From the NCBI RefSeq assembly GCF_010731655.1, contig NZ_AP022619.1:3906001-3970000 (forward strand): a stretch of 64,000 nucleotides of DNA. The letters are read 5' to 3'. Position 1 is the first letter of the stretch; every line of letters starts with the position of its first letter. This document shows positions 593 to 42,340 of the stretch, piece by piece. The notes beneath the pieces were generated by a model, which searched no databases, was not told where the DNA came from, and saw nothing but the letters and a program-made list of their open reading frames with translations. Origin of the DNA: Mycobacterium paraseoulense. Lineage in GTDB: Bacteria > Actinomycetota > Actinomycetes > Mycobacteriales > Mycobacteriaceae. The translations under genes were made by a program, and so were the position numbers.

Positions 593-1866
<1,274 letters not shown>

Positions 1867-23047: not shown

Positions 23048-23797
23048 ATGTCGGAAATCGGCCATCATCGCTTGGTGACGTCGTCACAGGCGCTGCCGCC
23101 GGGAGCCCGCATCCAGCGGCACCGACATCCCTTGCATCAGATCGTCTACCCGTCCTCGGGCGCGGTCTCGGTCACCACCCCGGCGGGAACCTGGATCACG
23201 CCCGCGAATCGGGCGATCTGGATACCGGCGGGCTGCTGGCACGAACATAAGTTCCACGGCCACACGCAGTTTCACGCCGTCGCACTGGACCCAAGCCGGT
23301 ACCGTCGCGGCCCGGCGGCGCCGGCCGTGCTGGCGGTCAACCCATTGATGCGCGAACTCATGATCGCGTGTTCGCAGACCGACGGAACCGACACGGACGA
23401 GCACCACCGGATGCTGGCCGTGTTGCACGATCAGTTGCAGGCGACCAGCGTCGGCGAGCCGCTGTGGATTCCCACACCCGTCGACGGCCGGCTGTCCGAA
23501 GCGTGCGCGTTGATCGCCGGCAACCTGCGCGAGCCGCTGACGTTGCAGCAGATCGGTCACCGGATCGGTATCAGCCCGCGCACGCTGAGCCGCCTGTTCC
23601 GCGACGAGCTGGCGATGACCTTCCCGCAGTGGCGCACCCAGCTCCGGTTGCAGCATGCCCTGGTGCTGCTGGCCGAGCGCCGAGATGTCACGTCGGTGGC
23701 GTCCGAATGTGGTTGGGCCACACCGAGTGCCTTCATCGACACCTATCGGCGCGCCTTCGGCCACACCCCGGGCCGGCTGACGCCGAAGACACCCTAG
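23048..23797 (+). CDS. AraC/XylS-family transcriptional regulator
   Basis: This 249-residue regulator has an N-terminal cupin sensor (HRHPLHQIVYPSSGAVSV, then AIWIPAGCWHEHKFHG) and a C-terminal pair of helix-turn-helix motifs. The first is TLQQIGHRIGISPRTLSRLF and the second is VTSVASECGWATPSAFIDTY, followed by RRAFGHTPGR. Such cupin-AraC proteins often control neighbouring efflux or metabolism genes; here the divergent methyltransferase is the nearest candidate. Its stop codon falls in the first copy of a 54-base tandem repeat derived from the end of serS. The ortholog is Rv3833. Confidence 0.9.
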   Translation: MSEIGHHRLVTSSQALPPGARIQRHRHPLHQIVYPSSGAVSVTTPAGTWITPANRAIWIPAGCWHEHKFHGHTQFHAVALDPSRYRRGPAAPAVLAVNPLMRELMIACSQTDGTDTDEHHRMLAVLHDQLQATSVGEPLWIPTPVDGRLSEACALIAGNLREPLTLQQIGHRIGISPRTLSRLFRDELAMTFPQWRTQLRLQHALVLLAERRDVTSVASECGWATPSAFIDTYRRAFGHTPGRLTPKTP

Positions 23798-38927: not shown

Positions 38928-40393
38928 ACGGCGACCGGCGCCCGCCTTTTCGCGAATCGCAGACCCTCGTCGGCGACCTTGCCGCGGCGGATCGTGCGCA
39001 TGTCGAAGAAGTAGTTCTGCTTGAGCCGCCACGGTGCGCGCGACCCTGACTTGGGCAGCATGTCCATCGCCCGCTGGAAATACCCGGGGCTGAAGTCCAT
39101 GAACGGCAGCTCGTCGACGTCATCGCCGGGATGCTCCGGCTCGACGAAGTCAAAACCCTTGTCGTCCATGTAGTTCAGCAGCCGGCAGACGAACTCGGAG
39201 ACCAGGTCCGCCTTCAGCGTCCACGAGGCGTTGGTGTAGCCGAAGGTGATCGCGAAGTTGGGAACCCCGGAGAACATCAGGCCCTTGTAGGTCATCAACG
39301 ACGTCAGTTCGATCGGCTCATCGTTCCTGGTGGGCTTCACCCCGCCGAGCAGCTGCATGTTCAAACCCGTTGCGGTGATGATGATGTCGGCCTGCAGCTC
39401 CTCACCCGAGGTGAGCCTGATGCCCGTCTTGGTGAACCGGTCGATGGTGTCGGTGACCACGTCCGCCTTGCCGTGCCGGATGGTCCGGAAGAAATCGCCG
39501 TCGGGAGCCAGGCACAGTCGCTGGTCCCACACGTTGTACCGCGGCCCGAAGTGCTTCTCGACGTCGTAGCCCTGCGGCAGGCGTCGCTTGGCCATGGTCA
39601 TCAACGTCTTGCGCATGTAGGCCGGGCGTTTCCGCGACAGCTGGTACTGGAACGTGCTGAAGGCGATCGCTTTCCAGCGGTTGGCGATGTGCGCCAAGCG
39701 GTCCGGCAACCACCGGTTGAACCGCACGGCGAACGGGTCGACCCCGGGCAGCGAGCCGATGTAGGTCGGCGAGCGCTGCAGCATCGTGACGTGACCGGAG
39801 CCCGAGTTCACCAGGGCCGGAATCAGGGTGATCGCGGTGGCGCCGGACCCGATGACGACGATCTTCTTGCCCGCGTAGTCGAGGTCCTCCGGCCAGTGCT
39901 GCGGGTGGATGATCTGGCCCTCGAAGTCGTCGGCGCCGGGGAAGGTGGGCGAGTACCCCTCGTCGTAGTTGTAGTAGCCGGTGCACGCGAACAGGAATGA
40001 GCAGGTGAGTTCGCGCTGTTGGCCATCGGACTCGACGGTGAGGGTCCAGCGGTTGTCGGTGTCGGACCAATCGGCGGCCAGGACGCGCTGGCGGTAGCGG
40101 ATGTGCCGGTCGATCTTGTTCTCAACCGCGGCCTCGTTGATATAGGCCTTGATGTCGGCGCCGTCGGCGATCGATTTCGCCGAGTGCCAGGGCTTGAACC
40201 GGAACCCCAGGGTGAACATGTCGGAGTCCGACCGGATGCCCGGGTATTTGAACAGGTCCCAGGTGCCGCCCAGGTCGTCGCGGCGCTCGAGAATGGCGTA
40301 GCTCTTGGTCGGGCAGCGCTCTTGCAGGTGCCACGCGGCGCTGATCCCCGAGATGCCGGCGCCCACGATGATCACGTCAAGGTGCTCAGTCAT
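38924..40393 (-). CDS. ethA: Baeyer-Villiger monooxygenase EthA
   Basis: EthA is the FAD/NADPH monooxygenase that activates ethionamide and related thioamides; its natural substrates are ketones or lipids. The 489-residue protein has the FAD motif [13 protein letters not shown] near residue 11, the second nucleotide motif [14 protein letters not shown] near 180, and the BVMO fingerprint FxGxxxHxxxWP ([12 protein letters not shown] near 160). It is divergent from ethR, with only 76 bases between starts, and the operator lies in that gap. The ortholog is Rv3854c. Confidence 0.95.
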
Positions 40394-40405
40394 GCGGCCA
40401 CGTTA

Positions 40406-40452
40406 TCAACGCTGTGTCGACGCAGTCAACGCTGTGTCGAAACTTTCGACAC
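40406..40452. promoter_or_regulatory. EthR operator
   Basis: Two direct copies of TCAACGCTGTGTCGA start at 40406 and 40426, 20 bases apart. The second overlaps an inverted repeat GTGTCGAA (40434-40441) and TTCGACAC (40445-40452). Such repeated GTGTCGA half sites match cooperative binding of several EthR dimers. Confidence 0.85.
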
Positions 40453-40469
40453 TGTGTAAAGTAACGGTC

Positions 40470-41111
40470 GTGACTACCGCCGGCCAGACCCGTGCCCTGC
40501 GTGGGCGCCGCGCAATCCGTCCCTCGGGAGACGACCGTGAGCAGGCGATCCTGGCGACCGCCGAACGGCTGCTGGAGCAGCGCTCGTTCGCCGACATCTC
40601 CGTCGATGACCTGGCCAAGGGTGCCGGACTGTCGCGCCCGACGTTCTACTTCTATTTCAAGTCCAAGGACGCGGTGCTGCTCTCGCTGCTGGAACCGGTG
40701 ATCGCGCGCGCCGACTCCGAGTTCGACGGCGCGGTGCAGCGGTTGCCCGAGGACCCGCGCAGGGTGTGGCGAAACGGCATCAAGGCGTTCTTCACGGCCT
40801 TCAGTTCACACCGCCGGCTGGCCCGCGCCGCGACAGAAGCGCTGGCGACGAGCTCCGAACTGCGCGTCGTGTGGTTGGGCTTCATGCAGAAGTGGATCGA
40901 CCAGACGGCGGCCATGATCACCGCCGAACGCGCTCGCGGCGCCGCACCGGAGACGATTCCGGCCGCGGACCTGGCCACCTCGCTGAACCAGATGAACGAG
41001 CGCACGATGATGGCCGCCCTGTCCGCCGAGACGCCGGCGGTCGATGAGGACCGGGTGGTCGACACCCTCACCCACATCTGGGTGTCCAGCATCTACGGCG
41101 AATCCGGCTAG
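40470..41111 (+). CDS. ethR: TetR-family repressor EthR
   Basis: EthR represses ethA and so sets ethionamide sensitivity. The protein is 213 residues from the GTG at 40470. The helix-turn-helix is DISVDDLAKGAGLSRPTFYF (about residues 43-62). The ligand-binding C-terminal domain has MQKWIDQTAAMITAERARGA and LNQMNERTMMAALSAETP, as in M. tuberculosis EthR. The operator is directly upstream. Earlier in-frame starts would place coding sequence across the operator and into ethA. The ortholog is Rv3855. Confidence 0.95.
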   Translation: MTTAGQTRALRGRRAIRPSGDDREQAILATAERLLEQRSFADISVDDLAKGAGLSRPTFYFYFKSKDAVLLSLLEPVIARADSEFDGAVQRLPEDPRRVWRNGIKAFFTAFSSHRRLARAATEALATSSELRVVWLGFMQKWIDQTAAMITAERARGAAPETIPAADLATSLNQMNERTMMAALSAETPAVDEDRVVDTLTHIWVSSIYGESG

Positions 41112-41127
41112 CCGTCACCGGCGCGTG

Positions 41128-41141
41128 CGAACATATGTTCG
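41128..41141. promoter_or_regulatory. LexA-type SOS box overlapping the dinB3 start codon
   Basis: CGAACATATGTTCG is a perfect 14-base palindrome fitting the actinobacterial LexA core CGAAC-N4-GTTCG. The ATG at 41135 lies inside it. LexA bound here would block initiation of the polymerase gene. Confidence 0.8.
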
Positions 41142-42340
41142 TGCGGTGCGACGCGTCCATCCTGCACGCGGACCTGGATTCCTTCTACGCGTCCGTCGAA
41201 CAGCGCGACGACCCGACGTTGCGGGGCCGCCCGGTGATCGTCGGGGGCGGGGTCGTGCTGGCCGCCAGCTATGAGGCGAAGGCCTACGGCGTGCGCACCG
41301 CGATGGGCGGCGGCCAGGCGCGGCGGCTCTGCCCGCATGCCGTGGTGGTGCCGCCGCGGATGCGGGCCTACAGCCGCGCCAGCGACGCCGTGTTCGAGGT
41401 GTTCCGCGACTGCACACCGATCGTGGAGCCGCTTTCGGTGGACGAGGCGTTCCTCGACGTCGGCGGGCTGCGCCGGGTGTCCGGGACGCCGGTCCAGATC
41501 GCCGCGCGGCTGCGTGCCGACGTGCGCGAGCGGGTCGGGTTGCCCATCACCGTGGGCATCGCCCGGACGAAGTTTCTCGCCAAGGTCGCCAGCCAGGAGG
41601 CGAAGCCGGACGGGCTGCTGCTGGTGCCGCCCGACCAGGAGCTGGCCTTCCTGCACCCGTTGCCGGTGCGGCGCCTGTGGGGCGTGGGCGCCAAAAGCGC
41701 CGAGAAACTCCACGCCCACGGCCTGGTGACCGTCGCCGACGTTGCCGAGCTGAGCGAGTCGACCCTGGCCTCGCTGCTGGGCGGCGCCATGGGCCGCCAG
41801 CTGTTTGCGCTGTCCCGCAACATCGACCGCCGCCGGGTGACCACCGGCGTCCGTCGCCGTTCCGTCGGAGCGCAACGGGCGCTCGGCAGATCGGGCAACA
41901 CCATCTCACCAGCCGAGCTCGACGCGGTGGTGGTCAACCTGATCGACCGCATCACCGGCCGGATGCGCTCCGCCGGGCGCACCGGCCGGACGGTCACGCT
42001 GCGCCTGAGGTTCGACGACTTCGGCCGGGCGACGCGGTCGCGGACGCTGCCGCTGGCGACGGCCTCGACGCAGCCGATCCTGGCCGCCGCCCGCCAGCTG
42101 GTCGCGGCGGCAGCGCCCGTGATCGTGCAGCGCGGGCTGACGCTGGTCGGTTTCGCGGTGTCGGGAATCGACCGCAGCGGCGCCCAGCAGCTGACGCTGC
42201 CCTTCGGCGACGACGAGAACCGGCTCGCGATCGACGCGGCGATCGACCGGGTGCGCGACCGCTACGGCAAGTCCGCGCTCACGCCCGCGGTGCTCGTGGG
42301 CCGCGACCCGGGACTGGAGATGCCGCACCTACCCGACTAG
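41135..42340 (+). CDS. dinB3: DinB-type (Pol IV-like) Y-family DNA polymerase, third mycobacterial clade
   Basis: This is a translesion polymerase. The 401-residue protein has the catalytic motif HADLDSFYASVE with Asp13, an aromatic steric gate (Phe17-Tyr18), and LSVDEAFLDV with Asp103 and Glu104. SYEAKAYGVRTAM and a C-terminal little-finger domain follow. A beta-clamp-binding type motif QQLTLPF is present near residue 347. It is not DinX or DinP by position; a DinB3 gene sits near ethR in M. smegmatis, so this assignment is by synteny. There is no counterpart here in M. tuberculosis. A GTG at 41141, just inside the SOS box, is an alternative start. Confidence 0.88.
   Translation: MFVRCDASILHADLDSFYASVEQRDDPTLRGRPVIVGGGVVLAASYEAKAYGVRTAMGGGQARRLCPHAVVVPPRMRAYSRASDAVFEVFRDCTPIVEPLSVDEAFLDVGGLRRVSGTPVQIAARLRADVRERVGLPITVGIARTKFLAKVASQEAKPDGLLLVPPDQELAFLHPLPVRRLWGVGAKSAEKLHAHGLVTVADVAELSESTLASLLGGAMGRQLFALSRNIDRRRVTTGVRRRSVGAQRALGRSGNTISPAELDAVVVNLIDRITGRMRSAGRTGRTVTLRLRFDDFGRATRSRTLPLATASTQPILAAARQLVAAAAPVIVQRGLTLVGFAVSGIDRSGAQQLTLPFGDDENRLAIDAAIDRVRDRYGKSALTPAVLVGRDPGLEMPHLPD

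Follow-up and report, generated by a model that had tools for sequence, protein, structure and literature searches.

A predicted compact promoter of mycobacterial dinB3, with a LexA half-site as putative -10 and a PafBC-like element upstream

Mycobacteria have two DNA-damage responses, and recA is the textbook gene under both, as described in PMC11804915: it has separate promoters, P1 being PafBC-dependent and P2 LexA-controlled. Sigma adaptation, involving a -26 element, is described as the way in which PafBC acts (PMC11804915); the PafBC motif is given as tTGTCRgtg-8nt-TannnT (PMC5656591), with variants in PMC8151990. The dinB3 locus explored here would likewise bring both damage regulators to one gene but, unlike recA, through one apparently shared promoter whose putative -10 is a LexA half-site. 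A second comparison is offered by Streptomyces venezuelae dinP, a Pol IV gene under LexA, as dinB3 is predicted to be, which the relevant part of PMC9380542 lists with dnaE2 and its SOS boxes, with no mention there of a PafBC element. The name dinB3 belongs to MSMEG_6443 of M. smegmatis (PMC4176160), a third mycobacterial DinB, like ours, with published damage induction and partial RecA dependence. Its expression was reported to be induced by UV and ciprofloxacin, the UV induction being reduced, and in the passage concerned not stated to be abolished, in a recA mutant (PMC9346131). Ofloxacin raised it 3.7-fold (PMC11653572), and BRACO-19 also raises it, with no significant change in recA and lexA according to the part of PMC8931766 that concerns them; it further appears among biofilm-changed genes, listed at 6.2 (PMC12702967). 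The comparison with M. smegmatis is one of published expression; neither an operator nor a PafBC element or transcript start is given for the gene in the relevant passages of PMC9346131 and PMC11653572. Inducibility of dinB3 is not new, and neither is its partly RecA-dependent character in M. smegmatis; the original prediction that such control of this gene would be unusual is not supported and is in part pre-empted by these expression data (PMC9346131; PMC11653572). No description of a fused operator and promoter was found in the literature searched, within which the fused geometry and the PafBC half of the control seem new; dual control as such may be published already. UV-induced mutagenesis was reported as not significantly lower after triple dinB deletion (PMC9346131).

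In the window, the whole 64 kb stretch of DNA that was analysed, dinB3 encodes a Y-family DNA polymerase IV at 41141..42340 on the + strand, with 399 codons when read from a GTG and 401 from an upstream ATG. The NCBIfam model PRK03858 (DNA polymerase IV; cut-off 367) matches its product at 690 bits, and the product contains the Pfam domains IMS and IMS_C. The genome holds three DinB-family matches at E<=1e-10, of which dinB3 is the third. We regard MSMEG_6443 as its M. smegmatis counterpart, presumably with the same gene neighbourhood. Neither of the other two DinB loci (L167, L168) has GAACN4GTTC within 1500 bases on each side; the L168 region has a pair of TGTCR-type matches, both on the strand that does not carry the gene. 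Across genus loci, 6 to 32 codons separate the GTG from the HADLD codons, and the long versions of this N-terminal tail resemble repeated GC-rich units (L079, L083, L105, L115, L129 and others). In the C-terminal part, the window gene encodes QQLTLPF at 42185-42205, and QLxLPF occurs in 93 of 110 full-length loci; it resembles a sliding-clamp binding motif, although DinB3 is said to have no C-terminal clamp motif (PMC9346131).

At the start of the gene lies the exact 14-mer CGAACATATGTTCG (41128-41141, + strand), which runs from -13 to +1 when the G of the GTG (41141) is numbered +1 and overlaps both an ATG (41135-41137) and the in-frame GTG (41141-41143). The original prediction, that an exact LexA-type palindrome containing the ATG overlaps the start of a third DinB polymerase, is thus confirmed in both respects. 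CGAACATATGTTCG is the single occurrence of exact CGAACN4GTTCG in the window. Shuffled windows contained 0.12 on average, with at least one in 11 of 100 shuffles, and chance occurrence judged from the window alone is not negligible. Against the 16-mer TCGAACN4GTTCGA, GCGAACATATGTTCGT has two mismatches, both at the outermost bases, and an exact 14-bp core, making it a close variant of the LexA (SOS) box; the outer bases depart from the 16-mer because the GTG and a TG pair occupy those positions. A degenerate second site at 23242 was dropped; it falls inside an open frame resembling, by eye, an AraC-type regulator.

Conservation within Mycobacterium bears directly on the nature of this palindrome. 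A protein search at E<=1e-100 found dinB3 in 247 of 297 genus genomes, and 148 loci were read, drawn from the top-scoring listed matches in those 247 genomes, so that near relatives are over-represented; left out of these were G076, where the place has stop codons, and the second copy in G014. Within the 180 bases that precede the HADLD codons, GAACN4GTTC occurs in 141/148 loci (the others being L003, L004, L062, L066, L073, L104 and L115), and 139/148 have the composite element in full, GTCR-N8-TGCGAACATNNGTTCGTG. Among 80 named-record loci, many from the same genomes as the 148, 74 have the composite element, so that the conservation in orthologs proposed as a check was found in both sets. 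In L219 of this second set the palindrome has a single altered spacer base, and no palindrome is present in five of the 80: M. parascrofulaceum, M. scrofulaceum, M. kyorinense E861, M. ostraviense and Mycobacterium sp. 1274761.0. In M. parascrofulaceum (L195/L003) and M. scrofulaceum (L196/L004), dinB3 is kept with its ATG and GTG, and the upstream DNA is different, with no operator and no GTCR at -27. Counted over all 297 genomes with a stricter pattern than in the reading of the 148 loci, the composite occurs in 199. A spacer one base longer gave 0/297, and the pattern read backwards gave none in the 297 genomes. Crossed by hand with the protein search, the element is present in 198 of the 247 genomes with dinB3 versus one (G292) of the 50 without dinB3 at that threshold; two elements occur only in G014 and G167, the two genomes with two dinB3 matches. 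Within the window's own genome, the pattern TGTCN12GAACN4GTTC occurs at three further places (L149-L151). Judged by this conservation, CGAACATATGTTCG is under selection and behaves like a LexA-type operator of dinB3, and we regard LexA control of the gene as very likely.

Ownership by another regulator, for instance an ArsR-type protein or the product of the neighbouring gene, has to be weighed here. ArsR sites are reported to resemble the mycobacterial SOS box (PMC8151990), and just upstream of dinB3 the window carries an EthR-like TetR regulator (40305..41111, + strand; longest open frame, start putative; Pfam EthR_C and TetR_N), with an EthR-like match no more than 1000 bases upstream in 99/105 loci, some genomes being counted under two locus ids. 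Yet the 14-mer is identical to the LexA consensus core, a frame of the same genome that is ruvC-like by eye has a one-mismatch 16-mer in front of it, and recA-dependent induction is published (PMC9346131), all of which makes another owner very unlikely. The same neighbour could supply the transcript: on the same strand in the window, the EthR-like stop stands 29 bases before the GTG, as would suit an operon read from the ethR promoter in which the operator were a minor internal site. This is highly improbable, however, given that six of the 105 loci have no such EthR-like match (L003, L195, L246, L249, L260 and L263, with L003 and L195 being one genome) and that L246, L249 and L263 still carry the composite element.

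How the promoter may be built was read from upstream DNA aligned on the HADLD codons, which gave 145 alignable loci and 143 distinct sequences; the loci are related by descent, and the counts are not independent events. Background conservation, over positions -75 to -31, averages 0.29 bits. GTC at -27 to -25 is present in 143/143 distinct sequences and is followed at -24 by a purine (47 A, 96 G); by locus, GTCR stands at -27 in 145/145, compared with 0-2/145 at each of the remaining offsets between -45 and -16. This putative PafBC -26 element (-28 to -24; 41113..41117, + strand) reads CGTCA in the window and most commonly TGTCG in the genus, T at -28 being found in 94/143 distinct sequences while the window itself has C. 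A TG at -15/-14 (41126..41127, + strand), which we take to be the extended -10 position, is invariant in 143/143; its T lies outside the 16-bp LexA site and its G replaces the LexA consensus T. The putative -10 hexamer, GAACAT (-12 to -7; 41129..41134, + strand), is made of the left LexA half-site and two spacer bases. A-11 and T-7, the critical bases of a -10, are invariant in 143/143, and the consensus T-12 is absent, G standing at -12 in all 143 because the LexA half-site demands it. Spacing matches the published PafBC motif exactly, TANNNT falling on GAACAT; the window departs from that consensus at -28 (C) and -12 (G), and across the 143 sequences GTC, R, A-11 and T-7 are constant at an exact register, with T-12 in none and T-28 in 94. 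The LexA spacer adds a further sign of double use. Over 145 loci its left pair is A in 144 and T in 145, against A in 130 and T in 136 for the right pair, an asymmetry expected if the left-pair T doubles as the T-7 of a -10; among the genome's six perfect 16-mers, in their listed orientation, the left spacer pair is not constant. Two things were missed in the original prediction, the likely PafBC element at -27 and the possibility that a LexA half-site doubles as a -10.

These features can also be laid out as a plain SOS gene, with LexA acting on an ordinary sigma-A promoter and PafBC playing no part: -35 TTGTCR, a 16-bp spacer and -10 TATGTT inside the palindrome. The T before GTCR in 94/143 sequences and the next T in 58/143 do yield TTGTCR-like hexamers 16 bp before TATGTT, and RecA dependence is published (PMC9346131). 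Against this layout, GTCR is invariant, its purine included, whereas the two preceding bases vary, the pattern of a PafBC element and not of a -35. Transcription would, moreover, start downstream of both start codons. The second base of a -10 hexamer is its most critical base, but in TATGTT that position (41135) is G, C or T in 15/143 sequences. We consider the sigma-A arrangement unlikely and rank it below the shared promoter, which lacks a conserved -35 hexamer where one is usually found, has a poor -10 (GAACAT) and so would need PafBC. PafBC dependence is accordingly predicted as likely from the register of these motifs. As to the regulators themselves, LexA was found in the genome, together with two adjacent WYL-domain frames that are presumably PafB and PafC.

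Which codon starts the protein is suggested by the same alignment. At the ATG position (41135..41137, + strand), inside the palindrome, the 145 loci have 121 ATG, 11 GTG, 9 ACG, 2 CTG and 2 TTG, that is, no ATG in 24/145, and this codon is probably not the start. Two codons further on, 143 have GTG, one has ATG and one (L104) is aligned as TCG; in L104 two bases are inserted, the ATG is out of frame, and an in-frame GTG follows two bases further on. RTG is thus present in 144/145, and in 144/145 the reading frame runs from the GTG into the polymerase without a stop. ATG 41135 was rejected as the start in Mycobacterium on its ACG, CTG and TTG variants and its frame in L104. Because the later codon stays RTG and in frame while the ATG position varies, it is the GTG that selection holds, and the ATG looks to be mostly a by-product of the palindrome spacer. 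The palindrome could instead have been kept as coding sequence (an N-terminal MFV and the start codon) and not for LexA, its right half being translated if the protein starts at the ATG. An invariant left half and a GTCR that precede any likely start, a palindrome mostly kept where the ATG codon differs, and downstream residues and length that vary leave this reading with almost no credit; it was rejected, the ACG variants contradicting it. In mycobacteria, messages are reported to be read leaderless only when their 5' end is an ATG or GTG (PMC4633059). The GTG (41141..41143, + strand; +1 to +3) is therefore proposed as both transcription start and leaderless start codon, and a message beginning there, with G41141 as +1, is predicted with good confidence. 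The alternative first offered, a leaderless message or initiation at the GTG, leans towards both together, with RTG in 144/145 loci as the ground for the prediction.

Outside the genus the two signals come apart. Other genera of the order gave 113 matches, of which 42 were read (2 loci and 40 fetched regions), comprising every one of the 15 from the same family and a further 27 hand-chosen for spread. GAACN4GTTC is found in 27/42; in 12 of the 27 it is accompanied by the PafBC register with an RTG in frame at +1 or +2, and in the other 15 it is not. The latter, a palindrome without the PafBC register in 15/42 loci, speak for the ordinary sigma-A promoter; they may be under LexA alone, or their start may lie elsewhere. 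In four of these 15, all of one sister genus (L275, L283, L286, L289), GAA replaces the GTG and TAATGT or TAGTGT stands just before the operator, so that the central ATG looks to be the start there; at several more loci operator and GTG are kept with no GTCR. Conversely, the PafBC register is present in 7 of the 15 loci without a palindrome; in L290 and L296 the GTC is owed to a displaced LexA-like half-site and is doubtful, which leaves five. L278, L281, L284 and L287 have no LexA site and keep GTCR, A-11, T-7 and an in-frame RTG exactly at +1, and L310, also without the LexA site, keeps the register with RTG at +2. When an in-frame start, A-11 and T-7 are required, GTCR stands at -27 in 19/42 loci versus at most 2/42 at other offsets from -45 to -16, and among the 15 without a palindrome the rule holds for 7 at -27 versus at most 1 at any other offset. 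To us, this comparison of offsets, which tells the promoter signal apart from the operator signal, gives the register its best single support.

Overall, we put a probability of about 0.72 on the prediction that dinB3 is read from one compact promoter, activated by PafBC and repressed by LexA on its -10 and +1, with a message that is leaderless and opens with the GTG. The DNA itself shows the layout, its register and conservation, and the natural variants; that LexA binds, that PafBC is needed, where the transcript begins and how the two inputs combine are inferred from these. In undamaged cells, a LexA dimer over about -13 to +1 would exclude RNA polymerase. Upon damage, RecA-stimulated LexA cleavage would free the -10 and +1, and PafBC, activated by single-stranded DNA, would read GTCR at -27, recruit the housekeeping polymerase by sigma adaptation and so switch the promoter on; the message would begin at G41141 and be translated leaderless from the GTG. 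Whether the two inputs form a strict AND gate of RecA/LexA and PafBC is a prediction that we hold at slightly under even odds. The reduced but not abolished induction without recA counts against a strict two-input gate, unless the LexA block leaks, and residual induction in the recA mutant may reflect such a leak. Tentatively, and with no greater confidence, we suggest a deeply conserved hybrid promoter, working as an AND gate, in which one DNA word serves as repressor half-site, -10 and neighbour of the start codon and which other lineages would have split, some keeping only the PafBC promoter and leaderless start and others only the LexA site.

A related arrangement may exist elsewhere in the same genome. 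Four of its six perfect SOS 16-mers (L152-L157) front DUF222 genes, which we take to be 13E12-type: L153, L155, L156 and L157 (- strand); L154 is DUF222-like by DNA layout only. In L153, L155 and L156, around 1502-1515 (+), and at the same place on the - strand in L154 and L157, the start ATG lies inside the perfect 16-mer, and TGTCR-N11-TANNNT directly precedes the box at L153, L154, L155 and L156. Like dinB3, these genes have an SOS box at the start, a -10-like TANNNT and TGTCR in the PafBC register (L153-L156); in the DUF222 genes, however, the -10-like hexamer precedes the LexA site and the ATG in mid-box is the start, whereas in dinB3 the -10 would lie inside the site, with the GTG on the site's right edge as the start. 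The L157 box is flanked by the DUF222 gene and by an open frame that resembles dapB by eye. Around 1502 in L158, the frame that is ruvC-like by eye has its one-mismatch SOS box after CGTCG-N11-TAGGGT, and is another candidate dual-control promoter.

If our reading of dinB3 is true, the start codon of DinB3 would have to be corrected by two residues, and its message would be leaderless. Set beside recA and its separate promoters, dinB3 would then be a minimal case of double control in mycobacteria, with both damage responses apparently on the same 40 bases, in an arrangement whose strict form is present in 198 of the 247 genomes that hold the gene.
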